Assembly: GCA_946699065.1 (NCBI GenBank)
Contig: CAMPDV010001451.1
Span: forward strand, 44,805-108,804
Reading direction: 5' to 3'
Length of the DNA: 64,000 nucleotides
From: Loxodes magnus
Lineage: Eukaryota > Ciliophora > Karyorelictea > Loxodida > Loxodidae
Shown: piece by piece, positions 2,343-62,000 of the stretch
Layout of the letters: every line of letters begins with the position of its first letter
Position numbering within the stretch: position 1 is the stretch's first letter
Position numbers and translations under genes: made by a program
The notes under the pieces: model-generated
What the model was told of the DNA's origin: nothing
Seen by the model: only the letters and a program-made list of their open reading frames with translations
Databases searched by the model: none

Positions 2343-3350
2343 TAACTGTTCGCCTTCCGGCTTAATTGAAGTTTAAATGTATAAAATCTCCGTTCCTTTT
2401 CTTTTTCCTTGACTTCTCTCTTTTATATAATCTGAGTTTATAATTTTTTTTCAGATTTTTCCATTTCCCGATGGGAAGAATTCTGTCGCTCGTTACTTCA
2501 GTTGCTATTAGTTAACACCCTTCCAGATATTCATTCTTATTTTTTTTATTGGGGACATTTCCGTCATAAATATCAAGTGCTGTTGCAAATGTAGCATCTT
2601 TTTCTTGCTCTTGTAAATTTCTTTTCTTGTTTCTCTATTTCCATTGGAGTTTCCTTAAGAAGGCTTCTACAGGTTTTCTTCTATTAATTTGAGCCTAGAA
2701 TCTAATTTTACTCAGTTTTTCTCATCTTGCTCTTGCATTACTCAAAATTTATTCTCTAAACTTGCACTTTGCTCATAAACTCCAACTTTAGTTCTTCGGT
2801 CTACCGTATGGACTTCATCATCATCTTCATGATTTATAAAATTCTGACTTAATACAAACATCTCTTCCTTCTGGGAGTTTAATTCCTCTTCAAATTTTTT
2901 TATGTTTCTAATAAGTTGATGAGTCAGCTGTTTCATCTACTCCGAGTCCATTTGTTCTATTTCAGTATTGTCTAAATAAAAGGTTATAGAATCTATATTG
3001 AATTATCATACTTTACCTTCTTCGTCATTTTTTATATTTTCGTTATTGTTTATATCGATTCAGTTGAGTGGCTTCTTTTTTCAATTTTCAATGGAGGTGT
3101 TGAGAGCTATGTTAACTTTTGTTCTGAATTTTTATCTCAATTCTTACTTGTACTTTGATGGGAGAGATCCGCTTTATTTTAATTTGTAAGAGTTAGTATT
3201 TTTTATAAGTTCTTCTAATCTATTAGATAGTTCTAGCTATTTTTATTAAGAATAGCGTTAAGTTGAAGAAGACGTGATGAGAATATGTGTTTCTGGTTTT
3301 CTTTCCTATTTTGATGAGGCGGTAAAAAAACCCTTCTTGAAGCCAGCCAT
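2343..3350 (-). CDS. LINE ORF1 relic: coiled coil plus CCHC zinc knuckle
   Basis: Reads leftwards from ATG at 3,350 (MAGFKKGFFTASS). The first ~220 residues are rich in Glu, Lys, Gln and Asn and look coiled-coil, e.g. 'IRNIKKFEEELNSQKEEM'. TGA is used for Trp inside it ('ENKFWVMQEQ', 'EKNWVKL'). The motif PMEIEKQEKK and the knuckle CYICNSTWYLWRKC (2,555-2,596, C-x2-C-x4-Y-x4-C, His replaced by Tyr) follow, but in a different frame from the coiled coil, so at least one indel lies near 2,660-2,700. Such coiled-coil plus CCHC proteins are the nucleic-acid-binding ORF1 of non-LTR retrotransposons. The closest relative in the window is the ORF1 relic at 47.0-47.5 kb; the copy at 52.0-52.9 kb is similar. 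No ORF2 was recognised immediately downstream (1-2.3 kb). Confidence 0.75.
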
Positions 3351-17592: not shown

Positions 17593-18386
17593 TTTGCATT
17601 CTCTGGAATTGCAACCAGTTCCTGCGGACAGTTTTTTTAACGTGGGTGTGATCCACGACCTTTTTATTAAGTGGAAGGTTACCACTGTAACCGTTCAAGT
17701 GGTCTTGCAAAAAGCTTTTATTTGTAGATCCCTGTTGGAGTTATTCATAGTTTATTGAGTTGTCTCCATGTTCTTTTCTGCTCTTATTCGTTTATTTTCT
17801 TTCATTATCAACAGTTTTTTAAAACATGTTGATTTGATTTGCAACATCAACAAAGTTTGTATTATTGTCTTTATTTCGTTCTTTTTTATGATAATTTATT
17901 TTCTATATTTTCTAATCTTTTAATGAAACTTGTAGCAATCATTTCTTTTTCTGGATTCAATTCTGTTTTTAATTCTATTGGTATTTTTTCTATTTCCATT
18001 TTTGTGTGGTATTTAAAATTTTATTATGATTAAGTTCAGAGTTATTCTTCCGTTATTAATTTGCTACAAATAAGTTATCTTCTAAGTATTAGTAATTCGT
18101 TGTTCTAATCTTCTATGTTACTCATTAGTTCCCGTATTTTTTCGCCTAAGTTGTAAGTTGTTTCTTCATAATTTGAGATTACTTTTTAAATTTGGTCTAA
18201 TTAAATTTAAAGTTTTTGATTAGTTTCGTTTTTAGGTTAACTTATCTCTATTTATCCTACCATAACTTTACCTTCTGAAGAAGAGCTTGACTCCTCCTAT
18301 TGTTATTATTTTTTCTAAATTTCTTTTGCCGCTTTTCTCTTTAGGTTTCTAAGTTAATTTTTTGAGAGTCGAAGAGATTAATCCAT
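17593..18386 (-). CDS. LINE ORF1 relic with CCHC knuckle (copy A)
   Basis: ATG on the minus strand at 18,386: MDQSLRLSKNQLRNLKRKA. It is clearly related to the 8.5-kb ORF1 element: 'EESSSSSEGKVMVG', 'NYEETTYNLGEKIRELMSNI', 'MEIEKIPIELKTELNPEKEM', 'FIKRLENIENK'. The knuckle CWCCKSNQHVLKNC (near 17,820-17,860) fits C-x2-C-x4-H-x4-C fully, with Trp from TGA, but sits in a different frame from MEIEK. The C-terminal 'NKLWITPTGIYKQKLF' aligns with 'NKLWITSNGIYKRKIF' of the 8.5-kb copy. Downstream there is a TAA microsatellite rather than ORF2, so this too may be an ORF1-only insertion. It predates the duplication because both copies have it at the same place. Confidence 0.75.
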
Positions 18387-18792
18387 TTTTTTAAAATTAT
18401 TTTAATTATAATTTAGTATATTTATTAAGCTTTCAATTTATTATTTATATTATATTTATTTTTATTATTTAAATTATAGTTTATCAAAACTGTCCGCTTT
18501 ACTTTTAAGCTAGCCATAGTAGATTAGGGTGGAAAAAATTCTAGAGGATAAGTCTAACTTAATCAAGATTTCACTTACTGAAAAGTTCGAATGACTGATT
18601 CCTTCTAATCTATGATTATTAGTTCCGGATTCAAATCTTCTTTCTTCACATGTCATATAATAAGGCAGATAATACAGATGATAATACTATATCTTGGAGT
18701 AAACCTACGATTTTCTTCAATTAATATTTAATTACAGAAAATTTTTTACTTTAAAAATCAAAGATTTAAATAGATAAAAAAATTGGATTATA

Positions 18793-18823
18793 GAGCGTGT
18801 TGCACTCTCGTTGGTGCAAGCTC
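18793..18823. other. Stem-loop (copy A)
   Basis: GAGC-GTG-TTGCAC-TCTCGTTG-GTGCAA-GCTC: two stems of 4 and 6 perfect pairs with a 3-base bulge and an 8-base loop, GC-rich against a very AT-rich background. It is unchanged at 56,393-56,423. It lies just 3' of the minus-strand ORF1 relic at 18.84-19.14 kb and could be a 3' hairpin of that element, or part of a small RNA gene. Confidence 0.6.
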
Positions 18824-18839
18824 TTTAAATTAATTTTAT

Positions 18840-19140
18840 TTAATGCTGAAAAATAAAATTTAATAAATCTCTCTATCCTTGTTTTCTCTTCCAACAGTGA
18901 GTACATGCAATTTAACCTTCCAAAGCAAAGGATGCAATATGTGATTACTGGTACATCTTTTCCCCGACCTATGATGAAGAAGGTTTTCTCCTGGTATTCA
19001 GAGTTCTCCAGCTTGTCAAATCTTCCTTCTAGGAGTTTTTTGCTATTGGTTTCTCTTTCTAATATTTATCCTCCGACCGCGCTCATTTTTAGTTGCCTTT
19101 TTGGGCCTCCAAGCAGCATCTGAAGGAAGGGCTTTCCACC
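18840..19140 (-). CDS. LINE ORF1 fragment (copy A)
   Basis: One minus-strand frame reads 'MLLGGPKRQLKMSAVGGQIL', then 'LLEGRFDKLENSEYQEK' (coiled-coil-like, resembling 'RFGKIEEKLQTFKKEQ' of the 52-kb copy), then CILCFGRLNCMYSL. The latter aligns with the knuckle, keeping the first two Cys only. Only the middle third of an ORF1 is present. In copy B the same fragment is at 56,440-56,740 with a few substitutions. Called ORF1 by this resemblance, so moderate confidence. Confidence 0.5.
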
Positions 19141-19476
19141 TTATTTAAATTTAATTATTTAATAATACATAAGAATTCTCATTTGGAGAAACTAGAATGT
19201 CTTATGATTGAATCAAGAAAGGTCAAGGAAAGATTTAAGATTTTTTTAATATAAGAGAGCACTAAACATTAGTTTAAACTTAATTCGAGACAAACCAAAT
19301 CACAGTATATTATTAATTATTTTTAGCTTCTTAAGCAATTAAAAAATAGATTTAAATATTATGTTTTTAAATATAAATTATACTGAAAACTAATTTCATC
19401 ATACTAATATTAGTTTTCTATTCTAAACTGTTATAATTGTACTGTAGCTTCCTTTATTTATTTGCTTTATAATCAA

Positions 19477-20784
19477 ATGTAAGGCATCTAGTTGTGTTAA
19501 TACTGCTTATATCCATTTAACCTAACCAATGCTGTTCCTACCCTCTTACCTTGTGGACATACTTTTTGTAGTTTATGCTTAAAGACTTAGAAGTATCTAT
19601 AGGATTAAATGAGCTGCTGCATTTGTTATAAGGTGTTCAGATTTAGATTTGAAGATTTAGATATAAATGATGAATGGGTGAGTATAGTGTAATAGAATGA
19701 GGAATATAGTAATAGGTAAGTAGTATAGAAATTAGATGAAATGAAGAAGTAAATTATAGAGAAGCAAAAGAAAATAACTAAACTATAATAAATCATTACC
19801 TACTTGTTTCTAAATACTATACCATCACATACTACATACTACTAATCACTGCTACTTAACAATACACTACTATATACTATCCATCTATCATCCTTTATTT
19901 CTATCATATAGAAATACTCCTCAACCAATATCCAATTAATATACCAGAAAATATAATCTAAAATAATAGATTAGAGAAGTATTTAATAAGGATAAAAGTA
20001 AAGTAGCTAAACTTAGTAGATTTATAAGGAATCTAATTATATTCATTTCTTTTAATGGGCAGCTTAAATACTTTTATTATTTAATATAGAAACAGAAGAA
20101 ATTAGGAAAATCTAAATAAGTATAATAGTTCCAAATTTTAGTAGTAGTATTGAGTATTAAAATAAGTTATTCTTAGTTGGAGGAGAAAAAAATGAGTAAG
20201 AAGTAAAAGAAACTTGATAGTTCGACTTCGAAGGAAAAAGTAAGAAACTAAGTGATCTTAACTAAGGTAGATCTATATTTGGAATAGCAGCAGCTTAAGG
20301 TTTTATTTATGTAGTAGGAGGAAGTTTCAATAATAGTTAGAAATTAAGAACAGTAGAAAAATTAAGAATAGGAAGTGAGAGTAAATGATAATACTGTTCT
20401 TAATTTCATTTTGGAATAGCATTCTAGACATTAGTAGCAGATAAAAGAGAAGAAAATATATATTAATTTGGAGGAATAAATTAAAAAGAATAAGTTTTAA
20501 AGGATATATGAAAGTATAATATATAGAATGATACATGAAATAAGTATAGTTTCAATCTTCCTGAAGCTGTCTCTCTTCCTTTAGTATTATTAGAACCACT
20601 TATTATAGTAGGAGGATTTAAAAATGCAAAAAAGAGGAATACCTAAGGAAAATATATAAAAGAAGCAATTAATAATGATAATAAAAAGAATTTAGACATG
20701 ATTTATTTTATTTATCAGGATTAAAAAAAAGAGACAAATTTGCTTATTCTTTTATTTTTAATCGGATTGGCTTTTTTTTGTTGA
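19477..20784 (+). CDS. RING finger, coiled-coil, Kelch-repeat protein (TRIM-like), copy A
   Basis: ATG at 19,477 and one frame to a TGA at 20,782-20,784, about 435 residues. RING finger of the C3HC4 type: C7, C10, C26, H28, C31, C34, C47, C50 ('LPCGHTFCSLC', 'SCCIC'). A coiled-coil-like helix follows near residues 75-110 ('LDEMKKQIIEKQKKITK'). Four Kelch blades are marked by 'LFLVGG' (~231), 'IYVVGG' (~274), 'YQFGG' (~329) and 'LIIVGG' (~375), with the matching Trp lines 'ETWQFD', 'SKWQYC', 'DIWKYN' and 'DTWNKY', all written TGA. RING domains usually act as ubiquitin ligases and Kelch propellers bind partners, so a substrate-selecting ubiquitin ligase is the family-based expectation. The C-terminus is uncertain: an A-run near 20,725 could shift into other frames that also look coding, and the TGA chosen as stop could be Trp. 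Confidence 0.85.
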
Positions 20785-21445
20785 GAATCGATATAGAAAA
20801 TTTGAATTACAAGATTTTAAGAGTAGCAAAGATGAGTGAAGACTAATAGATTTAAATATTTAATGATTTAAAATATAAAAAATAATAATTTGATATTAAA
20901 TTATAGATAATAAATATTAATAATGTATTGTAATTTTTCTATTTATTGAATTGTTAGGAAATATTAATGATAATAGAGTTTTTATTTATATAAAAATAAG
21001 AATTATTTATAAAGCATAAATAGATAAACTGTATTTTCATTGTTAAAAAATGAAAAATAAACTATAAAATCCATCAAATGGTTATTATTTAATTGTTTAT
21101 TTTAAGTAACTTTATTTAATTTTATTTCATTTGTACTAAATAATTAAGACAAATATATTTTACACAATCGATATATTTAGTTTAAATCTATTTTACAGCT
21201 AAAAATAAAGTAAATAAAAAGCAAGAGATTGAATATTCTAAAGAATTAAAATATTAAAATTTCTAACTATATAATAATAATTCTAAATATTAGAGAACCC
21301 TAAGTTTAATTCAAGATCTTTAAGGAGACATTATTGTCAATTAATACTTTCTAATTATCTTATAATATACACTTTTAAATATTTACTTTATATTCATTAT
21401 TATTAAGATATCTATATGCTTATTACTAAGAGCTTTTCAAACCTC
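20785..21445. other. Spacer after the RING-Kelch gene
   Basis: Mostly A and T; the first 100 bases may still be part of the Kelch gene in a shifted frame ('RKFELQDFKSSKDEWRLID'). Beyond 20,890 nothing is recognised. Confidence 0.5.
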
Positions 21446-22500
21446 ATGGAGAATCAATTAAGCATATTTGTATCATCAAATCAACCTAAATAAGAAATCA
21501 AGAATTCCTTTAACAAAAATGCAAAAATGCAAAGCTGACATTTAGGATAAGAATATCTCTTACTTTGAGCTTTTAGTTTATTAATGAACCTTAGTCTAGT
21601 TTTAGAGCTTAAACCTTGGCCTTTTAATTAAATTTAGTTCATAGACAGGATTTATTTTGTCTTCGAAAAGCAATCAGCTGGCTTCTTTATCAATCACTAG
21701 ACAAAAGTTTGATTATTTTACTTATATGTCAAATAATTAATTTTAGGTGTGATTCATAATAAAGATCTTCAACTAGCATTTACATTAACTAACAATTAAA
21801 AGGTAAAATCTTTAGTTAAATCTATCGAGCCACTTTGAATACCTTATTGCTAACTAATTTTCAATATGCTAAAGTTCAGTTGTACCAAGAAAGTACTTTG
21901 AATCTAAGAATATCGTTCAATTTTGAAAGCCTTAGTAACTTAGAACAAATAATTAGAAACATAACTAAAAAGTATAAGGAAAAACATATTTAAGAGAACT
22001 AGATACTCATTTAGCTTTACTTCAAGCTTTAATTAGAGTAATTCCCTTAGTTGTTTCTATGTATTACTCTTAACTGTATATTAACAATCATTAGGTTAAG
22101 TTCTTAAATCCACAGCCAAGGTTATATTCTGAAAGAAACTACAAATATAAGAAAAGATTTCTAGCTTAAAAGAGAGAAGGAAGACTTCTTTTCTATTTTA
22201 AATGTAACTAAAAGGTTTAACTTATGTTGCTTGGAAGTATTAAATTTGGATTTAAAAGGCTAGTTATTTATAATTAAGAATGCAAAATAAGTGAAATAAA
22301 AATATCGCTGAAAGGTATAAAAATAAGACATAAAAGCTACAAATATTTGAAATTAAACAAAACACTTGAAAGGAAAATTTGAAATAAAGATATAAATAAA
22401 TTGTAATAAGACTCAAATAAGCCTTTATAAAATAAACTAAATCTATTATAATTAATTATAGTTATTATTAATTTAAGCATCTTCATAATAGATATTAGTA
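21446..22500 (+). CDS. Coding-like tract, function unknown (copy A)
   Basis: ATG at 21,446 (MENQLSIFVSSNQPKQE) opens a plus-strand frame with plausible protein composition for about 340 codons, including 'QSWHLGQEYLLLWAFSLL' and, farther on, Lys and Trp-rich 'RMQNKWNKNIAERYKNKTQ'. No family is recognised. The other strand and other frames also give passable protein, so strand and frame are not settled. Copy B has a two-base indel near 59,520, which argues against a functional frame in at least one copy. Confidence 0.25.
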
Positions 22501-24678
22501 TTCTAACAAATAATATTATTTATACAGTTTGATAGATATAAGATACTAATAACTTTAACATTTAAACTTAACTTTATTTTTATTTAATTAATTAAAAAAG
22601 GCGGGAAATTTATACACTATATTTAATAATAACATAGAATGGATTTCAAAATTAAAGAATTAGAAACTAAAAATATCTTAATTGTATTAAATTATAAACA
22701 TCTTTCTATAATTTAGTTCTTAAACAAGGCTTATTTAAAATAACTGCTAAGATATAGATAAATTTAAGTTTTATTATTTTAGCTTGTTAATAATATCTCT
22801 TTAGCCAAGTAATTATTACTAAAGCTATTTAATAGTAACTATACATATTAGAATAAATATCTTCCAATCTTTATGCATAGTTAATAAATACAATCGCAAA
22901 AATCTATTTTTTATTTACTCTTTATTATTTAATCTAGCTAAATTACTATTTCTTAAACCTTAATTGAATTTATACCTTTAACTTTATTAGCTTCCTCAAA
23001 TTTAAGGAGTGAGATTTTATTCTATTAATTCAAACTAAAGCTTTTTTGTCGCTTGATTGTTAGATTTAGCATTTTATAGAATAAATAGCCCTTATGTCTT
23101 ATTTTGAATTTTAGTACAAACAGAATTTCTGATCCAAGTTCTTTTTTAATGGAAACACATAATTTCAAATTATTGTATCAGTATTTTGGTTTAAGTTGTA
23201 TCTTCAACTTTATTATCTAACTATCTAAATGGTCTGAAGATACTGTGAGTTAAATGATAAACCTAGATATTTTTGTAAAGCATATGTTGAATCTTGTGAA
23301 CTTCTATTAAATTAAGTTCTTTTAAAATGCTCATTAGTATTTCCCTGTTATCTTTTAGTTGATACTTTTATTATGCTTAGACATTAAAAGACTCTCTACT
23401 TGAAATTTACTTAGATATTGTCTTAAGCTGACATTAATTTAATTATCTAAACCTTATTTCATTAATAATAAAAAGTTGGTAAAATAGAAGTATCAAAAGA
23501 CTGAAGAGATAGTTTCTGTTTCAGTTAGTTTGAAAGAGGTTGGAAAATATTTGAGTACTCCCTATATCGTTCCCCTTAAATCTAAAGTTGTTTACATATA
23601 AAATAGATTCTAAAAGGTGTTAGTTATTAAAATAGTGTCTAGTTAATTCCTAGGTTATATAAGTGATTTATTAATAAACTCTAAGAATGATTACTTGTTT
23701 AATATTCCAGTTACATCCTTAATTACTATCTTATTCTTAATATTGATTTAAGATATTTGATAATTACTTAATTTATATTTAAAGCTTAACTACTAAATCT
23801 AACTAACAATAGAGATATTTCTTAGTATTAATTAGTATTAATAATAAGGTAGATGATAAAGGTATATTTAAGTTAATTTTTACTAGATATGTTAGTTAAT
23901 AATGTTACTATATAACTAAATGATAGGAAAGTTAGATAAAGCTTAGATTAAATAATGGTTTATTGCTTTATTAATCTTTAGTATCTTTTACTTATTAACT
24001 ATACCTATTATTACTATTCTTTTACCTATCAAACTATTATTTATATATTACTTAGGAATCATTATAGATACTACAAAGTCAACCTCTATCACTATTATTA
24101 TATATTTCTAATCAAATACTTCTAAGTTACTTCCTCTAATCATATTCAAAACCCAAATATATCTCATACAAATTCAAACATCCACCAGTTTAGTAAGATG
24201 CTTAAATGCAACTTCAATCAGAGTTACCCAATTATGTCTTCAAAGATAAACTTTAACATTTTAAAACTTAAATAACTCCTTTAACTTCTCCATATAGTCA
24301 AGCTTTTTAAAATATAAAGCTAAATCAAGCCTAATTTTCCTTCCTAAAATACCTGAAATTATATCACTTTATTTTTATTTCAAGCAAAATAGCTAAAGAA
24401 CAATAAATTACTTGGCAGAATCTAAACACTAAAGATTTAATACATTGAAAAACTATTAGATGGCTAAGATACCTTAATTAAAAAATCCTATCAACCATCT
24501 ACAACCTAACTAAATAAAAAAGCTTCTAATTAATCATTATAACAGATACCTATATTACTAGAAGGATCAACGATATTGGATCAACCTTAGATTTATACCT
24601 ACTTTATCATATCTAAATTGTTAAAAAACTTAAGTTAAAATAAATTTTACCTGCTAAAGTCACAAATTTATAAGGACA
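22501..24678. other. Unassigned sequence inside copy A
   Basis: I could not choose between competing coding readings, e.g. plus strand 'KWSEDTVSQMINLDIFVKHM' around 23,225 and 'IVSVSVSLKEVGKYLSTPY' around 23,510. This stretch looks identical, with no indels, to 60,101-62,278 of copy B. It may hold one or more real genes. Confidence 0.4.
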
Positions 24679-27000: not shown

Positions 27001-28500
27001 AGACTAATTCTTAAATTTAAGCCCTAAATTATGTTCTGACATTATCTTTCCTTCAATCGACTTTTAATAGCATTATTTTAGATTCCTTTTATTATTTCGC
27101 TAATATTTCAAATTATCTTAGAGATATTTAAACCTTACTTTTTCTCTATCTGTTTGCTATTTTATCTAGTATTCTTCTTTTAGTTCTAGTACCTAGTATT
27201 ATGTTTAGCTCTTTTAAATAAAAGTCTTGCTTCTATATTAAATTAACTTTGTGAATAATCAACTGTTTCGCTTCTGATTTAATTTCTTAAGCTTAAAGTT
27301 CAGTTTCCTTATTTAAATTCCTAATACTTAAGCAGTCTTATTAGTATGGTCAATCTAAAGGCTAATTTATATGGAGCAAAATTTTGCAATGTTGCTTGTA
27401 ACTTATGCATATTTTTCCTTATATCAGTTTTCCACTCTAAGTAGCCAAGCCTTGTTTACTAACATTTGTTTCTTGTACTACTCCTTTAGCTACTATTCAG
27501 AAACTTGTATACAAAGAGATTTTTCTTCACACTAAATATATCTAAACAAAAAGTTGCTCTTAATTCTGGATAGGTGACATGAGCCTTTTTAAATCTCAAA
27601 TATGTTAGCCTAATAAATATCTCAACTTGAGATATTTTTCGGCAGAGTAATCTCCTAAAAAGAAACTTTATTAAGCAATCCTTTCCAAATCTTTCTCTTT
27701 CTTTTTCCTGTTTTATAACGTTAAACATTTCAACTTCTGTCATTGGTTTTACTGTGGATATTGGAACATCCAATTTTCTAACTTTTTCTTTTCTCTTTTA
27801 TTTAAGCATATTAGATAATATCCTGATACAATTCTATTGGTTTCATTCAAGTAGATACGGTGGAAGGATTCCTTCCTAAGCGCTTGCTAAACCTTAATAT
27901 CAGCTGATTTTTATTCTGCAAGCTTCTTTTCTCAGCTTAACCTTTTCCGTATAGTGTTCTTTATTGAAAAGTTTTGCTTCGATTCCTTTTAAGCTCTAAG
28001 CTTTTTCAGCTAAATCCTTGTGCAACCTAGCTCTCTTTTTTCTTACTTTTCTTCATGATAAAAGCATTTACCTTGAGTCTTCTGGAGTTCTTCTATATAC
28101 TCGTTTTAAGGTATTTATGATAATGCAGTTGTTAACCTCTTTTTCCTTTGCTTTGATTAACGGTAGTCATCAATCAATAAGTAGATGGCTAGTCTATCTT
28201 TGTAGTCTATAAACCCTAATCTATTGATTCTTCTTATATTATATTGGCTAAGATTATTTCCTTTAACGTCTATTTGTAGTTTATTCTCAATTTAGTAATT
28301 TTGTCAGTTTTGTAAGAAGGCAACTGATTTTTATGTTAAAGCTGTCTAAATGATACCTAATACCATTAGTCTACCGAAAAGAGCTTGCTTTGCTAAGAGG
28401 CAGCCTATTAAAGTATACTAGCTGATGTATCCATACTAAAGCTTTAAGTTTAAAGGCTTGATTCTATAATATTTTAGACTATTTATAGTGAAATCTGCTT
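27000..28500 (-). CDS. Coding-like tract, function unknown
   Basis: The plus strand is rich in T and C here, so the coding strand is more likely minus. One minus-strand frame stays protein-like for about 450 codons ('RLGFIDYKDRLAIYLLIDDY', 'RKESFHRIYLNETNRIV', 'DFYLKELNIILGTRTKRRIL'). Plus-strand readings with hydrophobic segments ('LALFFLTFLHDK') are the likely shadow, but I cannot exclude a multi-pass membrane protein on that strand. No family recognised; no second copy is available for comparison because the window ends. Confidence 0.35.
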
Positions 28501-31100: not shown

Positions 31101-34100
31101 ATGCAACTAAGTTTATAAAAAATAGAAGTATGAAAAAAGAATAGTTAAGTAGTTAAATTAGAGTTTGAGTAAAAGCTATAGTAGGAACAGAGAGTTTATT
31201 ACTACTATCAAACACCATTTGACTTTGAAGATTATACGGATTTAAACTCTGAAGATATTTAATCGGAAGTGAAAAGCAAATATTCAGTTTATTAGGTTAT
31301 AGAAAAAATATATAGATGTCATGAATAGCATTTGTTTTGAAGTGAATAAATTCTAAGAATTTGTGAGTATAAAGATTTAAGAAATAAAATTTAGCATTTT
31401 TATGGAATTTCTATTGATGCTTGCTAAAGTAATGTCTTATTCTTCATATTAAATTAAAGCGAAAGTAATAAAACATAATATGACAGAGTTAAAGAAGAAA
31501 ATTGAATAGATCAATTAAATTAAATAAAGCAAGACTAAAACTAAATAGAGCTATTAACAACTTTACTTTTGGAAGGCTATGACTTTAAAAAAATAATATG
31601 GTCATTTACCATTCAAAAATATACAAAAATAAAGCCTATCGAATGACTTAAAAATATTTCTAACGAACGACAACTAAATTTAAAAGAAAACTAATAAATC
31701 TTAGAATTAATATAGAATAACTAGTAAAGCTAACTGGAAAATATAATAACTAAGAAGTATTTTATTAAGCAATAGTAATACAATTTGATATAAAGCATTT
31801 ACATATTAAGTAACGATACTCTATTATATACCATTTCATTTTGGGGATTTCTTATTCTTAATTTTTATTGCCATACTTAATAAAAATCTCTTAGGTTTAA
31901 TATAGCAAGTAGATTGAATAGACTGTAATAGAGCTTTACCATGGAAGATGTTTTAAGTATCTGCATTTAATAGAATCTTAGCTAAATACAGTTATCGTAA
32001 AATTAAAACCTAATACTCTACTAAAACTTTACTTAAATGGAATTACAAGTTAATCAAAAGCCAGAATGCTATGACTATTGGAGAGATGAACTTGTACAAT
32101 GCTATTAAAGAGATTAGACTTCAGATATAAACTTAGTGTTGTATTTACAAAGCGAATAAATATATCAATCAGCTAAGCAAAGATAGAAAGCTTAAATAAA
32201 TGCTTCATAGACTAATTAAAATGAATTAGAAGCAGAATTTTATAACATCTTATAATACAGACTTTGGCTAAAAATTTAAGTCTTCAAGTAAAATTAAAAT
32301 ATTATCAAACTAGCACTAGAAGAAGAAATCTAAAAGTCTTAAAACTAAATTAATGAAAGCTTTTACTAAAATATACTGAGCAATGTTATTGAAAGGATAG
32401 AAATAAATTAGCCTATTAAACAACTGGAAGGTGAAAAAATATAACTAGCTTAAGAGTTTTTATTTGCTTTTTAAGAAATTAATTAAGCTTTAAAAAAGAA
32501 ATCTTAAGAATAGAAGTAAGCAACCTTATTTAAGAAAAACCAATCAATAATAAAAGTCTATTAATTACTAAATGATATAATCCACTATAATTCATAAGCA
32601 TAGGAATAGGAACTATAAATGACTAATTTTGAGATGGCTTTAAGTGATCTAACTAGCAAGCATTTTGAAGATTCATTAATTTAATTTGCAATTACTTAGA
32701 TATTCATGACTAATGCATAATAGCCCTCAACATTTGGCTTTTAAATATTTAAGAAAGTAAAAGAAGAAAGAAATTGGGAATATTTTTTAAGAATGTCCAA
32801 CAAAGAGATTATTTAACTATGTGAAGAGAATCTTTAAAGCTTGAAAGAAATTAATAAATTTCCTCAAAATCCTAATTTATTTTAAGCTTTATAAACCGTT
32901 TTTGAACTATTTTTTTATAATATTAAAGACTTATCAAAACTGATGTTTGCTTTAGATAAGTTATATAGTTTTAAATATAAATAGAATGAGACGTAAGGAA
33001 TAGCCTAATAATAAATAAATGATGGAGAAGCATTTTTGGAAGGATTGAAAGCAGCTTTGAAAGAAAACAAGAAAACTGTTGATTATCTTTTTTTCATTGA
33101 TGACTAATAATTTTTGTACTGGATATAAATAGATTAGAAAAATAGAAGACTAATATCACCTTTCCTTTTAGGATAAAATAATAACTAAATTCTATTTTAA
33201 CTCTAAGAAGAAAAGGATTTCAAATGAAAAAATATAATTATTTAGTTTCATAATATGAAATAAGATAAGTTTAGTAAACTAAATGCCTTAGGGTCTCTTC
33301 TGAACATTTCACATGAAGTTTATTTTAGTAAATTCCAAAAAAAATAAAACAATGATTTATGAAACTTTCAGCGTAAATTTCCTGGCTATTGACTACTTGA
33401 AAAAATTTATGTAAATAAAACAGGAGATGTTATAATAATAAAGGCTGAGAATATGTGGAGCTAAGCAAGGATAATAAAAATAGTAAAGTAAAATGTAAAA
33501 CATTTAGAGTAAATAATACTTAAGTTATGAACTAGAAAATAGCTATATACCAAATATTGTTGTGAAATATATAAATATGATATCAACACTCTAGACAATG
33601 TTGCTTGGAGTTTAATGGAGTATTATGGAAAAGGAAATTTATAAAATTTAATATAGAGTAGAAAAGGTTAGTACTTTGATTTTATTAGACTAATCTAATT
33701 TGCTGAATTCTTAATAGAAGGCTTTGCTTTTCTTTAAGATATGGAAATATATCATTCAGACATAAAGCCTTCCAATATCTTTGTTGATGATAATGAGAAT
33801 CTTAAAATCGCTGATTTTGATTTTTCAGTTTCATAGAAGTAGATTTATCCATAGAAAGAGTTTGCATATACAGAAGGATACTAATCTCCACAAATAGTTT
33901 AAAACTAGTAATACAATCCTTATAAATCAGATGCTTTTTCATTAGGAATTACTCTACTTGAAGTAGCTACTTTATAAAATCAATAGCATCTGTAATTAAA
34001 CCGGCAATAAAGAACGGAGAAGGAGCTCCTTAAATTAATAGCAGATAAAATCTCACATTATTAACGTTATCAATAGTTTAAAAACTTATAGCAACTTCTA

Positions 34101-37100
34101 TTTACTATGCTTTAGTGAGATGAAGACCAAAGATGTGATTTTAAGGAATTAAAAGATAAAAAACTAAGAAATCTAGCTATAAATCAACATTCTTCAGAAG
34201 TATAGATACCATATCATTAGTCTTAGATACTTCAATAATTACCAGTAAACGAAAGTGAAATTATTATTTAAAGCCAACATTAGACTTAAATAACATCTTC
34301 TGCTTAAAAACAAAATGATCAAAATTAATTTTCTTATGCAGCTAAAACAGGTTCTTACGATAAACAAATGACCTAGCAATAGAAAACTTAGACATAGACT
34401 AAAATGGATAATACATAACTAGAAGATAATCTTAATAAGTAAAATAACTATTCCAAGTAGGATAAACTTAACTCAATTTAAATTTAGAATGAAACAAATC
34501 AGTCTAAAGGCTCTTCAGGAATCATTAAATCTGGCTCAATTTCTAAATAAGATGAATGTAGTTAGCCTTCTGTAATTATAGCCAGCTTAAAATCTTAGTA
34601 AGCAGATGCCAACATATAAGAGTTCTTTTTCAGATATTAAGCATCTTAGTCAATAAAGTTACTTTCTTGGTTTTCAAAATCTTATAAATAAACTTTTATG
34701 CTTTAACTAGATGAAAATGAAAAATAGCAAATAAAAAAGCTAGCAAGATAAGAAATCATGCCTTACATGGAATTGAACTAAATTGAATAGAAATACTAAA
34801 ATAATGCTTACTTAATTGTTATTATGTAATAAGAGCTGTTTACTCACTTGAATGTTAAATACTTAATACATTAATAAGTTAATAATAGCAATAAGACTTA
34901 TATAGGATAAGTCAATGATTAATTATTTCCAGATGGCTTTGGAAGATTATTATAGAATTAATTATACTACGAGGGAGAGTTCAAAAACGGATTAAAACAT
35001 TAGAACGGAATTTTAATAAATCTAAAAGAAAAAATAATTGAGAAGGCTTATTTTTAGAATGATAGGAAAATATCTTCGTAAATAATTTGAAAAAGTGACT
35101 TAATTTAGTAGAGTTTAGCCTAAGAAAGCATTACAAACTAACTTTAAAGTTAGTTATAAGACTAGCATTTAAAAGAAATGATAGTTAAGATATCATAAAT
35201 TATAAAAAGCATTTAAGTTATAAATTAAGAAAGTTAATATTCAGTTATTCAAAAAGAAGAGTATATAACTTATGAAGGATAAATCGATAAGAACTTTAAT
35301 TTTCATGGATATGGAATCATTCTTTATTAAAAAGATAAATTTTGCTTTATAGGACGTTTTGCTTGTGGAAAAAAACATGGAAAAGGAATTGTTTTCGATC
35401 TGAAATAGTAAGAATGTTATTTGTCAATTTATAACTACGATCTCATTCAAGTAAAACTACCTACAAAAGTATTGAAGTAAAATTTAAACGAATTGTCTAA
35501 TTTTAGTGAAAGTATCTGGTTTAAATGAATCTTTATTCCTTATAAAAAGTATTAAAAGTAGACTAATAATAGCTAATTAAAGTATCCTACTAGCATAGAG
35601 TAGATAAAGTTTAGCTTGCAAATATATAAAGATGAACTAATTTAGATATTAATTAGAAATATAAAAGGGATCTATTTTACAAACTTTAATAGCAGTTCTT
35701 AGCTATAAACTCCTTTCCTTGTATAACATCAGTTTTGAAAGCTAATGTTTAATAACCTCTTATAAGAGAAAATTAAATAGAATAAAGAGGAAATGGATTA
35801 AATAGTAAAGATTAAGGAATCTTGTCTAGCTTCTTATAATAAAGAGAACAGATTAGAGCGCTTATATATCTTCAAACTTAATTTACTTAATCAAGTCATT
35901 TAAAGGGAATTTAATTACTATAACTGATTAAATCATTTTTATCTATATTTCGAAAGTTGGCATGATTGAGAAGTTTATTAGTTTGAAGTTAAAGATATAT
36001 ATTATGGAAAATATTTACAAAATATGAAGCATGGATTTGGAACTTATTATTATGCCTAAGGCGATATTTATGAAGGAGAATGACTCTTTAATAAAAAGCA
36101 TGGAAAAGGAAAGTTCAAATATATTAATGGATCAGAATACGATGGCTAGTATGTAGAAGATAAACGATAAGGAAAAGGAAGGTGCCAATTAGTTAATGGA
36201 AACATTTATGAAGGAGATTGATATAATGATTAACGAACTGGCTATGGAATATTTAATTATAAAGATGGATCTAAATACGAAGGAAATTTTGTCAATAATT
36301 TAAAATAAGGAAAAGGAATTTGCTATTTTTTGCATGGCGACTAATACGAAGGTGATTGATATTAAGATTAGTAGCATGGAATAGGAATATTTAGGTATGG
36401 AGACTAAAGTACATATGAAGGATAGTTTGAGTAAAGTAAAAAGCATGGATAAGGAAAATACATATTTAAAGATGGAACCATCTATAAGGGTTAATTCTAG
36501 AAGAATGTTAGATAAGGTTATGGAATTTGCAAATACTAAGATGGACGAAGTTATTAAGGAAATTGATTCAATGATGTAAAGCATGGGTAAGGTGTTTTAA
36601 GATATAATGACGGAAGTTTGTATAAAGGTAATTTTGAAAAAAATAGAATTAAAGGTTATGGAATTTGTTTCTATAGTGATGGAAATTAATATGAAGGAGA
36701 ATGAAAAAATGATTTAAGAGATGGATATGGAATTCTAAGATATTTTGATGGAACTATATATAAAGGATAATTTGAATAAAATATTAGATAAGGTAAAGGA
36801 ACTTGTAGCTTTGTAAAGAAAGGAAGATATGAAGGCGATTGGTATTAAAATAAAATACATGGATAAGGAAAGTTTTATTTCAAGGATGGAAATGTTTATG
36901 AAGGTTAATTTGTAGAAAATTTTATGTAAGGAAAAGGAATTTTTTATTACTAAGATGGTAAAATATATGAAGGATATTGAATAAAAGGTTAATAATAAGG
37001 AAAATGTATTTTAAGATATTTGGATGGAAGTAAATACGAAGGCGATTGAAGTTTTGGCAAAAAAAATGGATATGGTGTCTTATAATTTATAAATGACGAC

Positions 37101-37466
37101 AAGTATGAAGGACATTTCGTTGATGATTTAATGCAAGGTTAAGGTTCTTTTTAATATACTAATGGAGATTTTTATCAGGGTTATTTTGAATAAAATAAAA
37201 GATAAGGAAAGGGAATTTATGTTTATAGGGAAGGAAATTTTGTTTTAAATAAAAGGTAAGGATAAGGAATTTATTATTATAAATAAAAACAATTTTATTA
37301 GGGAGATTGGTATAACAATTTTCAACATGGAACTGGAAGGATTTAATATGAAAATAAGAGTTTTCAATTTGGTTAATGAAAATACAATAAACTTGCAAGT
37401 TAAATAAACTACACGGATAGAAATGGAAATGAAAAGAAGATTTCTCGAAACATTTCTTTCATTTGA
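31101..37466 (+). CDS. Large protein kinase with MORN repeats
   Basis: One uninterrupted frame of 2,121 codons plus a probable TGA stop at 37,464. It reads from ATG 31,101 (MQLSLQKIEVWKK) if TAA and TAG are Gln and TGA is Trp; more than 20 internal TGA fall where Trp fits. Residues 1-750: no known domain, helical and Gln-rich. Kinase domain about 760-1018: catalytic loop HSDIKPSN (885), metal loop DFD (905) instead of DFG, 'EGYQSPQIV', and 'MLQWDEDQRCDF' near 1003. Gln-rich linker, then MORN-like units near 1264 and 1391 and an array of about 18 units of 23 residues at 1634-2084 ('YEGDWYQDQQHGIGIF'). MORN repeats commonly bind membranes or scaffold proteins, so a membrane- or cytoskeleton-anchored kinase is likely. 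Asp, Lys and Asn of the catalytic loop are present, so activity is plausible despite HSD and DFD. No intron is needed. An earlier stop at 37,377 is possible. Confidence 0.93.
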
Positions 37467-55192: not shown

Positions 55193-55986
55193 TTTGCATT
55201 CTCTGGAATTGCAACCAGTTCCTGCAGACAGTTTTTTTAACGTGGGTGTGATCCACGGCCTTTTTATTAAGTGGAAGGTTACCACTGTAACCGTTCAAGT
55301 GGTCTTGCAAAAAGCTTTTATTTGTAGATCCCTGTTGGAGTTATTCATAGTTTATTGAGTTGTCTCCATGTTCTTTTCTGCTCTTATTCGTTTATTTTCT
55401 TTCATTATCAACAGTTTTTTAAAATATGTTGATTTGATTTGCAACATCAACAAAGTTTGTATTATTGTCTTTATTTCGTTCTTTTTTATGATAATTTATT
55501 TTCTATATTTTCTAATCTTTTAATGAAACTTGTAGCAATCATTTCTTTTTCTGGATTCAATTCTGTTTTTAATTCTATTGGTATTTTTTCTATTTCCATT
55601 TTTGTGTCGTATTTAAAATTTTATTATGATTAAGTTCAGAGTTATTCTTCCGTTATTAATTTGCTACAAATAAGTTATCTTCTAAGTATTAGTAATTCGT
55701 TGTTCTAATCTTCTATGTTACTCATTAGTTCCCTTATTTTTTCGCCTAAGTTGTAAGTTGTTTCTTCATAATTTGAGATTACTTTTTAAATTTGGTCTAA
55801 TTAAATTTAAAGTTTTTGATTAGTTTCGTTTTTAGGTTAACTTATCTCTATTTATCCTACCATAACTTTACCTTCTGAAGAAGAGCTTGACTCCTCCTAT
55901 TGTTATTATTTTTTCTACATTTCTTTTGCCGCTTTTCTCTTTAGGTTTCTAAGTTAATTTTTTGAGAGTCGAAGAGATTAATCCAT
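55193..55986 (-). CDS. LINE ORF1 relic with CCHC knuckle (copy B)
   Basis: Counterpart of 17,593-18,386, ATG on the minus strand at 55,986, with only scattered substitutions. The knuckle CWCCKSNQHVLK is kept. Same remarks as for copy A. Confidence 0.75.
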
Positions 55987-56392
55987 TTTTTTAAAATTAT
56001 TTTAATTATAATTTAGTATATTTATTAAGCTTTCAATTTATTATTTATATTATATTTATTTTTATTATTTAAATTATAGTTTTTCAAAACTGTCCGCTTT
56101 ACTTTTAAGCTAGCCACAGTAGATTAGGGTGAAAAAAATTCTAGAGGATAAGTCTAACTTAATCAAAATTTCACTTACTGAAAAATTCGAATGACTGATT
56201 GCTTCTAATCTATGATTATTGGTTCCGGATTCAAATCTTCTTTCTTCACATGTCATATAATAAGGCAGATAATACAGATGATAATACTATATCTTGGAGT
56301 AAATCTACGATTTTCTTCAATTAATATTTAATTACAGAAAATTTTTTACTTTAAAAATCAAAGATTTAAATAGATAAAAAAATTGGATTATA

Positions 56393-56423
56393 GAGCGTGT
56401 TGCACTCTCGTTGGTGCAAGCTC
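56393..56423. other. Stem-loop (copy B)
   Basis: Identical to 18,793-18,823. Confidence 0.6.
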
Positions 56424-56439
56424 TTTAAATTAATTTTAT

Positions 56440-56740
56440 TTAATGCTGAAAAATAAAATTTAATAAATCTCTCTATCCTTGTTTTCTCTTCCAACAGTGA
56501 GTACATGCAATTTAACCTTCCAAAGCAAAGGATGCAATATGTGATTACTGGTACATCTTTTCCCCGACCTATGATGAAGAAGGTTTTCTCCTGGTATTCA
56601 GAGTTCTCCAGCTTGTCAAATCTTCCTTCTAGGAGTTTTTTGCTATCGGTTTCTCTTTCTAATATTTATCCTCCGACCGCGCTCATTTTTAGTTGCCTTG
56701 TTGGGCCTCCAAGCAGCTTCCGAAGGAAGGGCTTTCCACC
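56440..56740 (-). CDS. LINE ORF1 fragment (copy B)
   Basis: Counterpart of 18,840-19,140 with a few substitutions (e.g. at about 56,646, 56,700, 56,718 and 56,721). Confidence 0.5.
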
Positions 56741-57076
56741 TTATTTAAATTTAATTATTTAATAATACATAAGAATTCTCATTTGGAGAAACTAGAATGT
56801 CTTATGATTGAATCAAGAAAGGTCAAGGAAAGATTTAAGATTTTTTTAATATAAGAGAGCACTAAACATTAGTTTAAACTTAATTCGAGACAAACCAAAT
56901 CACAGTATATTATTAATTATTTTTAGCTTCTTAAGCAATTAAAAAATAGATTTAAATATTATGTTTTTAAATATAAATTATACTGAAAACTAATTTCATC
57001 ATACTAATATTAGTTTTCTATTCTAAACTGTTATAATTGTACTGTAGCTTCCTTTATTTATTTGCTTTATAATCAA

Positions 57077-58382
57077 ATGTAAGGCATCTAGTTGTGTTAA
57101 TACTGCTTATATCCATTTAACCTAACCAATGCTGTTCCTACCCTCTTACCTTGTGGACATACTTTTTGTAGTTTATGCTTAAAGACTTAGAAGTATCTAT
57201 AGGATTAAATGAGCTGCTGCATTTGTTATAAGGTGTTCAGATTTAGATTTGAAGATTTAGATATAAATGATGAATGGGTGAGTATAGTGTAATAGAATGA
57301 GGAATATAGTAATAGGTAAGTAGTATAGAAATTAGATGAAATGAAGAAGTAAATTATAGAGAAGCAAAAGAAAATAACTAAACTATAATAAATCATTACC
57401 TACTTGTTTCTAAATACTATACCATCACATACTACATACTACTAATCACTGCTACTTAACAATACACTACTATATACTATCCATCTATCATCCTTTATTT
57501 CTATCATATAGAAATACTCCTCAACCAATATCCAATTAATATACCAGAAAATATAATCTAAAATAATAGATTAGAGAAGTATTTAATAAGGATAAAAGTA
57601 AAGTAGCTAAACTTAGTAGATTTATAAGGAATCTAATTATATTCATTTCTTTTAATGGGCAGCTTAAATACTTTGATTATTTAATATAGAAACAGAAGAA
57701 ATTAGGAAAATCTAAATAAGTATAATAGTTCCATATTTTAGTAGTAGTATTGAGTATTAAAATAAGTTATTCTTAGTTGGAGGAGAAAAAAATGAGTAAG
57801 AAGTAAAAGAAACTTGATAGTTCGACTTCGAAGGAAATAGTAAGAAATCGAATAATCTTAACTAAGGTAGATCTATATTTGGAATAGCAGCAGCTTAAGA
57901 TTTTATTTATGTAGTAGGTGGATTTAATAATAGTTAGAAATTAAGAACAGTAGAAAAATTAAGAATAGGAAGTGAGAGTAAATGATAATACTGTTCTTAA
58001 TTTCATTTTGGAATATCATGATAGACATTAGTAGCAGATAAAAGAGAAGAAAATATATACTAATTTGGAGGAATAAATTAAAAAGAATAAGTTTTAAAGG
58101 ATATATGAAAGTATAATATATAGAATGATACATGAAATAAGTATAGTTTCAATCTTCCTGAAGCTGTCTCTCTTCCTTTAGTATTATTAGAACCACTTAT
58201 TATAATAGGAAGATTTAAAAACGCTGGAAAAGAGGAATACCTAAGGAAAATATATAAAAGAAGCAATTAATAATGATAATAAAAAGAATTTAGACATGAT
58301 TTTTTTTATTTATCAGGATTAAAAAAAAGAGATAGATTTACTTATTCTTTTATTTTTAATCAGATTGGCTTTTTTTTGTTGA
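57077..58382 (+). CDS. RING finger, coiled-coil, Kelch-repeat protein, copy B
   Basis: ATG at 57,077. The RING finger and coiled coil appear identical to copy A. In the Kelch part copy B has a 3-base in-frame deletion at the second blade ('YVVGGF' instead of 'YVVGGSF'), several amino-acid changes ('FGIS' for 'FGIA', 'LIIIGRF' for 'LIIVGGF', losing one of the two Gly of the last blade), and one extra base near 58,222, which moves the last ~50 codons into another frame relative to copy A. A 2-base deletion lies near 58,422. Copy A looks the better gene, copy B a diverging or decaying paralogue. Where each copy stops is unsure because TGA can also be Trp. Confidence 0.75.
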
Positions 58383-59042
58383 GAATCGATATAGAAAATT
58401 TGAATTACAAGACTTTAAGAGTGCAAAGATGAGTGAAGACTAATAGATTTAAATATTTAATGATTTAAAATATAAAAAATAATAATTTGATATTAAATTA
58501 TAGATAATAAATATTAATAATGTATTGTAATTTTTCTATTTATTGAATTGTTAGGAAATATTAATGATAATAGAGTTTTTATTTATATAAAAATAAGAAT
58601 TATTTATAAAGCATAAATAGATAAACTGTATTTTCATTGTTAAAAAATGAAAAATAAACTATAAAATCCATCAAATGGTTATTATTTAATTGTTTATTTT
58701 AAGTAACTTTATTTAATTTTATTTCATTTGTACTAAATAATTAAGACAAATATATTTTACACAATCGATATATTTAGTTTAAATCTATTTTACAGCTAAA
58801 AATAAAGTAAATAAAAAGCAAGAGATTGAATATTCTAAAGAATTAAAATATTAAAATTTCTAACTATATAATAATAATTCTAAATATTAGAGAACCCTAA
58901 GTTTAATTCAAGATCTTTAAGGAGACATTATTGTCAATTAATACTTTCTAATTATCTTATAATATACACTTTTAAATATTTACTTTATATTCATTATTAT
59001 TAAGATATCTATATGCTTATTACTAAGAGCTTTTCAAACCTC

Positions 59043-62000
59043 ATGGAGAATCAATTAAGCATATTTGTATCATCAAATCAACCTAAATAAGAAATCAAGA
59101 ATTCCTTTAACAAAAATGCAAAAATGCAAAGCTGACATTTAGGATAAGAATATCTATTACTTTGAGCTTTTAGTTTATTAATGAACCTTAGTCTAGTTTT
59201 TAGAGCTTAAACCTTGGCCTTTTAATTAAATTTAGTTCATAGACAGGATTTATTTTGTCTTCGAAAAGCAATCAGCTGGCTTCTTTATCAATTACTAGAC
59301 AAAAGTTTGATTATTTTACTTATATGTCAAATAATTAATTTTAGGTGTGATTCATAATAAAGATCTTCAACTAGCATTTACATTAACTAACAATTAAAAG
59401 GTAAAATCTTTAGTTAAATCTATCGAGCCACTTTGAATACCTTATTGCTAACTAATTTTCAATATGCTAAAGTTCAGTTGTACCAAGAAAGAACTTTGAA
59501 TCTAAGAATATCGTTCAATTTTTTGAAAGCCTTAGTATCTTAGAACAAATAATTAGAAAAATAACTAAAAAGTATAAGGAAAAACATATTTAAGAGAACT
59601 AGATACTCATTTAGCTTTACTTCAAGCTTTAATTAGAGTAATTCCCTTAGTTGTTTCTATGTATTACTCTTAACTGTATATTAACAATCATTAGGTTAAG
59701 TTCTTTAATCCACAGCCAAGGTTATATTCTGAAAGAAACTATAAATATAAGAAAAGATTTCTAGCTTAAAAGAGAGAAGGAAGACTTCTTTTCTATTTTA
59801 AATGTAACTAAAAGGTTTAACTTATGTTGCTTGGAAGTATTAAATTTGGATTTAAAAGGCTAGTTATTTATAATTAAGAATGCAAAATAAGTGAAATAAA
59901 AATATCGCTGAAAGGTATAAAAATAAGACATAAAAGCTACAAATATTTGAAATTAAACAAAACACTTGAAAGGAAAATTTGAAATAAAGATATAAATAAA
60001 TTGTAATAAGACTCAAATAAGCCTTTATAAAATAAACTAAATCTATTATAATTAATTATAGTTATTATTAATTTAAGCATCTTCATAATAGATATTAGTA
60101 TTCTAACAAATAATATTATTTATACAGTTTGATAGATATAAGATACTAATAACTTTAACATTTAAACTTAACTTTATTTTTATTTAATTAATTAAAAAAG
60201 GCGGGAAATTTATACACTATATTTAATAATAACATAGAATGGATTTCAAAATTAAAGAATTAGAAACTAAAAATATCTTAATTGTATTAAATTATAAACA
60301 TCTTTCTATAATTTAGTTCTTAAACAAGGCTTATTTAAAATAACTGCTAAGATATAGATAAATTTAAGTTTTATTATTTTAGCTTGTTAATAATATCTCT
60401 TTAGCCAAGTAATTATTACTAAAGCTATTTAATAGTAACTATACATATTAGAATAAATATCTTCCAATCTTTATGCATAGTTAATAAATACAATCGCAAA
60501 AATCTATTTTTTATTTACTCTTTATTATTTAATCTAGCTAAATTACTATTTCTTAAACCTTAATTGAATTTATACCTTTAACTTTATTAGCTTCCTCAAA
60601 TTTAAGGAGTGAGATTTTATTCTATTAATTCAAACTAAAGCTTTTTTGTCGCTTGATTGTTAGATTTAGCATTTTATAGAATAAATAGCCCTTATGTCTT
60701 ATTTTGAATTTTAGTACAAACAGAATTTCTGATCCAAGTTCTTTTTTAATGGAAACACATAATTTCAAATTATTGTATCAGTATTTTGGTTTAAGTTGTA
60801 TCTTCAACTTTATTATCTAACTATCTAAATGGTCTGAAGATACTGTGAGTTAAATGATAAACCTAGATATTTTTGTAAAGCATATGTTGAATCTTGTGAA
60901 CTTCTATTAAATTAAGTTCTTTTAAAATGCTCATTAGTATTTCCCTGTTATCTTTTAGTTGATACTTTTATTATGCTTAGACATTAAAAGACTCTCTACT
61001 TGAAATTTACTTAGATATTGTCTTAAGCTGACATTAATTTAATTATCTAAACCTTATTTCATTAATAATAAAAAGTTGGTAAAATAGAAGTATCAAAAGA
61101 CTGAAGAGATAGTTTCTGTTTCAGTTAGTTTGAAAGAGGTTGGAAAATATTTGAGTACTCCCTATATCGTTCCCCTTAAATCTAAAGTTGTTTACATATA
61201 AAATAGATTCTAAAAGGTGTTAGTTATTAAAATAGTGTCTAGTTAATTCCTAGGTTATATAAGTGATTTATTAATAAACTCTAAGAATGATTACTTGTTT
61301 AATATTCCAGTTACATCCTTAATTACTATCTTATTCTTAATATTGATTTAAGATATTTGATAATTACTTAATTTATATTTAAAGCTTAACTACTAAATCT
61401 AACTAACAATAGAGATATTTCTTAGTATTAATTAGTATTAATAATAAGGTAGATGATAAAGGTATATTTAAGTTAATTTTTACTAGATATGTTAGTTAAT
61501 AATGTTACTATATAACTAAATGATAGGAAAGTTAGATAAAGCTTAGATTAAATAATGGTTTATTGCTTTATTAATCTTTAGTATCTTTTACTTATTAACT
61601 ATACCTATTATTACTATTCTTTTACCTATCAAACTATTATTTATATATTACTTAGGAATCATTATAGATACTACAAAGTCAACCTCTATCACTATTATTA
61701 TATATTTCTAATCAAATACTTCTAAGTTACTTCCTCTAATCATATTCAAAACCCAAATATATCTCATACAAATTCAAACATCCACCAGTTTAGTAAGATG
61801 CTTAAATGCAACTTCAATCAGAGTTACCCAATTATGTCTTCAAAGATAAACTTTAACATTTTAAAACTTAAATAACTCCTTTAACTTCTCCATATAGTCA
61901 AGCTTTTTAAAATATAAAGCTAAATCAAGCCTAATTTTCCTTCCTAAAATACCTGAAATTATATCACTTTATTTTTATTTCAAGCAAAATAGCTAAAGAA

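Follow-up and report, generated by a model that had tools for sequence, protein, structure and literature searches.

The window analysed here, meaning the whole 64-kb stretch of DNA, belongs with high confidence to the macronuclear genome of Loxodes magnus and is read with NCBI genetic code table 27: TAA and TAG encode glutamine, and TGA serves both as a second tryptophan codon and as the stop at gene ends. Alongside this code, the genome has genes for UUA and CUA tRNAs in many copies and arrays of tRNA-Trp(CCA) genes with a 4-bp stem, plus one place with the 5-bp form. All three standard stop codons had been predicted to act as sense codons in the large kinase-MORN reading frame of the window, and the placement of these codons, together with domain matches obtained with every stop codon masked, confirms it. 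A context-dependent genetic code is thus detectable from raw sequence, and the code that applies to other findings in this window is TAA and TAG as Gln, and TGA as Trp or stop.

The use of stop codons as sense codons in Loxodes has already been published and is not new. Karyorelicts are reported to use table 27, with UGA as the sole stop and, at a distance from the poly(A) tail, as a Trp codon too (PMC11441545). For L. magnus, the same source gives a mean 3'-UTR length of 53 bp and a modal intron length of 17 bp, and it finds UGA and UAA, but not UAG, to be depleted ahead of the stop. The original prediction also warned that standard gene finders would miss nearly every gene of such a genome, a need already addressed by the gene finder Pogigwasc, made for the table 27 code (PMC11441545).

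Kinase-MORN reading frame

The frame at 31101–37466 of the forward strand begins with ATG and ends with TGA, comprising 2121 codons and the terminal TGA (2122 in total). It stays open only when each of TAA, TAG and TGA is taken as a residue. The frame contains 161 TAA, 68 TAG and 23 TGA codons, of which 22 TGA are internal, together with 41 CAA, 6 CAG and 13 TGG. These tallies prove little, because the local GC content is 23–25%: 80–141 TAA and 19–83 TGA occur in each of the five alternative frames here. The in-frame stop tally was dropped as evidence for sense use, all six frames being full of stops. The number of stop codons in the frame is not above chance; their positions are far beyond it.

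Translated with Gln, Gln and Trp at TAA, TAG and TGA, the protein matches the Pfam families MORN (E-value 6.2e-86) and Pkinase (1.9e-28). With X at every stop codon of the kinase and MORN stretches, the matches persist (1.2e-53 and 6.8e-27, respectively), and the identification of both parts is therefore independent of the assumed code. The protein kinase domain (PF00069; 33537–34160, forward strand) covers residues 813–1020 of the frame and profile positions 53–260. By eye, HSD replaces the HRD motif and DFD replaces DFG, and the kinase may be inactive, judging from these residues. Further downstream, 17 in-register MORN units of 23 residues each (36054–37226, forward strand) carry TGA at their aromatic position in seven cases and TGG in one. 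An ordinary kinase-MORN gene is the best explanation of this frame.

TGA as a second tryptophan codon

The MORN units had been singled out as places where TGA stands for Trp, and this was borne out. Within codons 1650–2121, seven of the eight TGA fall at one position modulo 23, where one of the two TGG is found as well; random placement, repeated 100,000 times, never brought seven TGA into phase. The aromatic position across the 17 units is occupied by F in eight, TGA in seven, Y in one and W in one. A second example, the presumed Trp of ‘MLQWDEDQR’ in the kinase domain, did not hold: the alignment column of this codon (1006) is not Trp in 48 other kinases (K in 14, T in 7, and others).

The Pkinase profile was searched against the genome (705,730,643 bases in 7843 contigs), and 136 places were scored from 5592 candidates. 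All but one of these places carry in-frame TAA, TAG or TGA. The best 48 of the 136 places and the domain of the window were aligned with six codons masked, giving 49 domains. TGA columns are enriched most strongly in Trp (log2 6.01, n = 39), and the value for TGG is nearly the same (Trp, log2 6.16, n = 89). Three Trp columns hold 28 of the 39 TGA and 65 of the 89 TGG, and none of the 1489 AGA, GGA, TTA, TGT, TGC or CGA codons; the remaining 11 TGA and 24 TGG lie outside them. Columns shared by TGA and TGG, in agreement with the phase of the MORN repeats, bear out the predicted use of TGA as a Trp codon beside TGG. Inside genes, TGA acts as a tryptophan codon, as in table 27.

TAA and TAG as glutamine codons

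The same codon alignment, a check proposed along with the original prediction, gives Gln as the most enriched residue in the columns of both TAA (log2 2.09, n = 228) and TAG (log2 2.11, n = 126); for the standard Gln codons the enrichment is 2.97 (CAA) and 2.68 (CAG). Gln columns are weak in kinases, and most TAA lie in columns led by other residues. The commonest residue in the TAA columns is K, followed by E, exactly as for CAA.

Independent evidence comes from eRF1 and from histones. Two eRF1 genes, L040 and L041, are located on one contig (C196) at 19.7 and 54.6 kb, 35 kb apart. Each has 436 codons and is free of in-frame TGA up to its end, with 20 and 21 TAA/TAG, respectively; over the 436 codons they differ at 19 amino acids and 64 bases. 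When all stop codons of L040 are translated as X, 9 of the 20 X align with Gln of human eRF1 (7 of 13 TAA and 2 of 7 TAG, counted from the alignment), among them the Gln in the catalytic GGQ motif, and the other 11 masked codons are not opposite a human Gln. Between the two copies there is one CAA/TAA swap and one TAG/TAA swap. In the histone H3 gene L043 (C317), residues 5 and 15 are encoded by TAA, and in its sister L044 both are standard Gln codons. The kinase columns, eRF1 including its GGQ motif, and the H3 pair all agree with the predicted Gln-like places of TAA and TAG, which behave as Gln codons, as table 27 has them.

Gene ends

Gene ends were examined in the two eRF1 genes and in 30 of the 31 histone places listed in the genome. 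A TGA lies within 53 codons past the Pfam domain in 29 of the 30 histone loci. It directly follows RGERT in all five canonical H3 genes, and it stands at an identical distance of 37 codons in all five H2A-like genes (L065–L069; type names assigned by eye). Both eRF1 copies also terminate at TGA. At no histone or eRF1 end examined is TAG required, and TAA is possibly required at one of the 30 histone loci. TGA is thus the likely stop codon, as in table 27, with two possible TAA exceptions discussed below.

With TGA as the likely stop, the most probable end of the kinase-MORN gene is the TGA at 37464–37466 (forward strand), 29 codons downstream of the last internal TGA (codon 2093).

The 20 codons before each of 31 stops (29 histones and 2 eRF1, related copies included) were compared with the upstream parts of the same genes. 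The 620 stop-proximal codons include no TGA, 5 TAA, 6 TAG, 8 CAA and 5 CAG, and the 3862 upstream codons include 3 TGA, 96 TAA, 70 TAG, 67 CAA and 17 CAG. These counts do not establish a fall in sense TGA before the stops (0 of 620 versus 3 of 3862), and the depletion of TAA relative to the other Gln codons before these 31 stops is not significant (Fisher p = 0.12). The original prediction held that stops are told from sense codons by their place near the transcript end. Such a distinction would concern TGA; TAA and TAG are ordinary Gln codons, again with two possible TAA exceptions. Because TGA is the only published stop and ends 29 of the 30 histone genes and both eRF1 genes, it is only TGA that needs to be told apart by place.

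Possible termination at UAA

Two genes may depart from this rule. The first is a histone H3 variant (L050; C327, bases 1855–2200), which reads ...RGEKHLTDM and then runs into TAA TAA TAA. The next in-frame TGA is 519 nt past RGEK, and the nearest TGA in the other frames are at 148 and 236 nt. Within 144 nt after RGEK, no GT-AG stretch of 15–40 nt begins. Strong purifying selection acts on its H3 core (pN/pS 0.023 over 96 codons in comparison with the sister gene L048), and the GC content drops from 34.8% to 18–27% past the end of H3. At the place homologous to this TAA, L048 has TGA; another sister, L047, has TAA there with a TGA five codons later.

The second gene (L039; C2, reverse strand, bases 2553–3070 of the reverse complement) surfaced in the eRF1_1 profile search and was named pelota-like by eye. 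Its acidic tail is followed by AFMI and then TAA, and the first in-frame TGA is 522 nt from AFMI. A TGA in another frame lies 7 nt from AFMI, and upstream there are GT-AG stretches whose length would change the frame. One intron-like GT-AG stretch upstream is 17 nt long, the modal intron length published for L. magnus (PMC11441545).

Relative to human eRF1, both Loxodes copies share the changes E55A, T58R, S60Q, S70A, L124F, Y125F and E134Q (numbering from the human alignment). According to Table 1 of PMC4698671, where the values are marked as private communication, human eRF1 with E55Q keeps 75% of UAA release and 35% of UAG release, and with Y125F it keeps 100% and 34%, respectively; the Loxodes change at position 55 is E55A.

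Taken together, these observations tentatively suggest that UAA could be a second, rare and place-dependent stop, which would make the code intermediate between table 27 and that of Condylostoma (table 28), with an eRF1 that has mainly lost the response to UAG. The tandem TAA of the selected H3 core, the distance of the pelota-like gene from its next in-frame TGA, the eRF1 changes at positions where human substitutions spare UAA release more than UAG release, and the published depletion of UAA, not of UAG, ahead of L. magnus stops (PMC11441545) all point this way. On the other hand, TGA ends 29 of the 30 histone loci and both eRF1 genes, L047 has the homologous TAA and yet a TGA five codons on, the depletion of TAA before the 31 ends is not significant, the pelota-like gene could reach the nearby TGA by a change of frame, and the published code has UGA as its only stop (PMC11441545). 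Table 27 remains the preferred reading.

A broader scheme that joins these points with the tRNA genes described below is likewise possible, though somewhat doubtful. The code would then not be strictly UGA-only. The eRF1 would have lost UAG and would still answer UAA near the mRNA end, so that a few genes, such as the H3 variant on C327 and the pelota-like gene on C2, stop at a UAA read as Gln elsewhere. Trp decoding would be split between the amplified 4-bp-stem tRNA-Trp for UGA and the 5-bp form for UGG. The abstract of a 2022 study by Seah et al. reportedly states that UAA may serve as the stop in a small minority of karyorelict transcripts; a search of open-access papers turned up nothing on stop-UAA in karyorelicts. 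Should UAA stops prove real, the genes named above and the residues of eRF1 would be what is new. Any remaining use of UAA as a stop would be informative on how stop codons come to be read as sense.

tRNA genes

No tRNA was detected within the 64-kb window by ARAGORN, and tRNA genes were searched for by patterns in the whole genome. One pattern, built on a single UUA tRNA and permitting the anticodons UUG, CUG, UUA and CUA, gave 272 matches (none in the reversed control). The 100 matches listed all have TTA without a mismatch, and all three loci checked with ARAGORN fold as tRNAs with the TTA anticodon. A CUA pattern gave 80 matches (8 in the control), and three of the four loci checked fold with CTA; a narrower CUA pattern had no matches in the genome. 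ARAGORN labels these tRNAs by anticodon alone, as ‘Stop’ and ‘Pyl’, respectively. The tRNAs with UUA and CUA anticodons looked for on the basis of the prediction are thus both present in many copies, and codon use suggests that they carry Gln.

The pattern for tRNA-Trp, which permitted both CCA and TCA, had 136 matches (17 in the control). Among the 100 matches listed, 92 are one sequence, 48 of them on C67 and 44 on C148. The 27:43 pair is broken in all seven copies read on these contigs (A.C in three on C67, T.C in four on C148), and it is intact (T-A) in a copy on C110, which has the full 5-bp stem. ARAGORN calls all eight tRNA-Trp(CCA). A tryptophan tRNA able to read UGA had been expected; tRNA-Trp(CCA) genes of the 4-bp-stem form were indeed found, and the reading of UGA by them would be their probable role. 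In reporter tests, such tRNAs increase readthrough of UGA, and they have been reported from Condylostoma, Blastocrithidia, Blepharisma and Loxodes (PMC13092985).

An unlikely alternative is that a dedicated tRNA-Trp(UCA), or anticodon editing, accounts for the reading of UGA as Trp, and not the 4-bp-stem tRNA-Trp(CCA). The pattern fixed one form of the T loop, 100 of its 136 places were listed, and three of these have TCA in the loop (one on C14 and two on C64), which leaves some room for such a gene. However, TCA was permitted by the pattern, and no tRNA-Trp(UCA) was found among the loci run through ARAGORN. The first four loci checked were three tRNA-Trp(CCA) genes and a place on C12 that ARAGORN does not call a tRNA, five further ones were CCA, and L072, with TCA in its loop, was likewise not called a tRNA. 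Decoding of UGA by the 4-bp-stem tRNA-Trp(CCA) is retained as the preferred reading.

The tRNA genes found fit a scheme of default translation and readthrough. Under the model that Swart et al. put forward in 2016 (PMC4967479), translation occurs by default, and eRF1 is favoured at transcript ends. In Loxodes, the UUA and CUA tRNAs, charged with Gln, would read UAA and UAG, and the 4-bp-stem tRNA-Trp would read internal UGA. Only near the 3' end of the mRNA would eRF1 outcompete this tRNA at UGA, a mechanism already suggested for Condylostoma and Parduczia.

The tRNA-Trp(CCA) genes with the broken 27:43 pair form tandem arrays at 482–491 kb of C67 and 155–167 kb of C148, with a spacing of about 187 and 241 bases. 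The tRNA-Lys, UUA tRNA and CUA tRNA genes also occur in arrays; nothing on tRNA arrays in Loxodes was found in open-access papers. A copy of the UUA tRNA on C1668 (L079, 1470–1542) has one additional A in its anticodon loop and, according to ARAGORN, the four-base anticodon ttaa; it is a variant or decayed copy. Two other routes to the wanted tRNAs were abandoned. The 30 loci examined with RF00005 were all centred on tRNA-Lys copies. The sites hit by the first patterns were not recognised as tRNAs by ARAGORN or, for Gln, were only variant copies plus one place not called a tRNA, because the usual copy is one base shorter between the anticodon loop and the T loop than assumed.

Comparison with other genetic codes

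The code agrees with table 27 of Loxodes magnus and Parduczia, in which UAA and UAG are Gln and UGA is Trp or stop, and no difference from it is established, except that two genes here may end at UAA. In Blepharisma, UAA and UAG are still stop codons. UGA is Trp there as well, and a 4-bp-stem tRNA-Trp has been reported (PMC13092985). In Blastocrithidia, too, all three stop codons are reassigned, with UGA read as Trp via a 4-bp-stem tRNA-Trp(CCA). However, UAR is Glu and UAA is the stop in Blastocrithidia (PMC12153298), while UAR is Gln and UGA is the stop in Loxodes. The position of human eRF1 Ser70 is Gly in Blastocrithidia (PMC12153298) and Ala in Loxodes.

Condylostoma magnum (table 28) has the same Gln, Gln and Trp sense use and also a 4-bp-stem tRNA-Trp(CCA) (PMC13092985). 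In this ciliate all three codons are also stops (PMC4967479), whereas the Loxodes ends are TGA save for the two candidates. The original prediction had placed the code with those of both karyorelicts and Condylostoma; the karyorelict type was upheld, and the notion of all three codons as place-dependent stops proved too broad. A full Condylostoma-type code, with all three codons commonly both stop and sense, would account for TAA, TAG and TGA being used as sense codons; it is nevertheless very improbable, given that TAG is needed at no histone or eRF1 end examined, TAA possibly at one of the 30 histone loci, and that the code published for L. magnus is table 27 (PMC11441545). That the frame at 31101–37466 is a pseudogene or no gene at all, its stops being marks of decay, is hardly credible: its stop tallies do resemble those of the other five frames, but the kinase and MORN parts are matched with X at all stops, TGA keeps the MORN phase, and in-frame stops occur in eRF1, histone and Kelch genes and, with a single exception, at each of the 136 kinase places.

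Other genes of the window

Coding potential was scanned along the window solely for choosing stretches for Pfam searches. Apart from Kelch and RING, the six-frame Pfam scans matched S8e, DUF3440 and Epimerase_2, the last two being weak and below the cut-off. LINEs with the same code had been predicted, and this was not borne out: no reverse transcriptase or other LINE domain was found at E 0.001 in six frames of about 44 of the 64 kb, the rest being covered in single frames at most, a search that could miss decayed or frame-shifted copies.

A ribosomal S8e-family stretch on the reverse strand (27519–28007; Pfam E-value 2.3e-4, below the cut-off) looks NSA2-like by eye. It contains several frame shifts and was dropped as a test of the code within the window; the frame changes are introns or signs of a decayed copy.

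The predicted use of the same code in the RING-Kelch gene holds. Two copies are present on the forward strand: the first at 19495–20649 (RING 19495–19629, Kelch 20068–20649) and the second at 57095–58261 (RING 57095–57229, Kelch 57665–58261), both with in-frame TAA and TAG, and with TGA in the Kelch part. A Kelch stretch of 194 codons contains 11 TAA, 4 TAG and 4 TGA, and no CAA, CAG or TGG. Two of these TGA lie in ‘DI-TGA-KYN..NDT-TGA-NKY’, at the usual Trp place of Kelch repeats. The surrounding 5-kb stretch occurs twice in the window (18001–23000 and 55601–60600), with 98.9% identity over the whole 5-kb query, so that the duplicated segment may extend beyond it in either direction.
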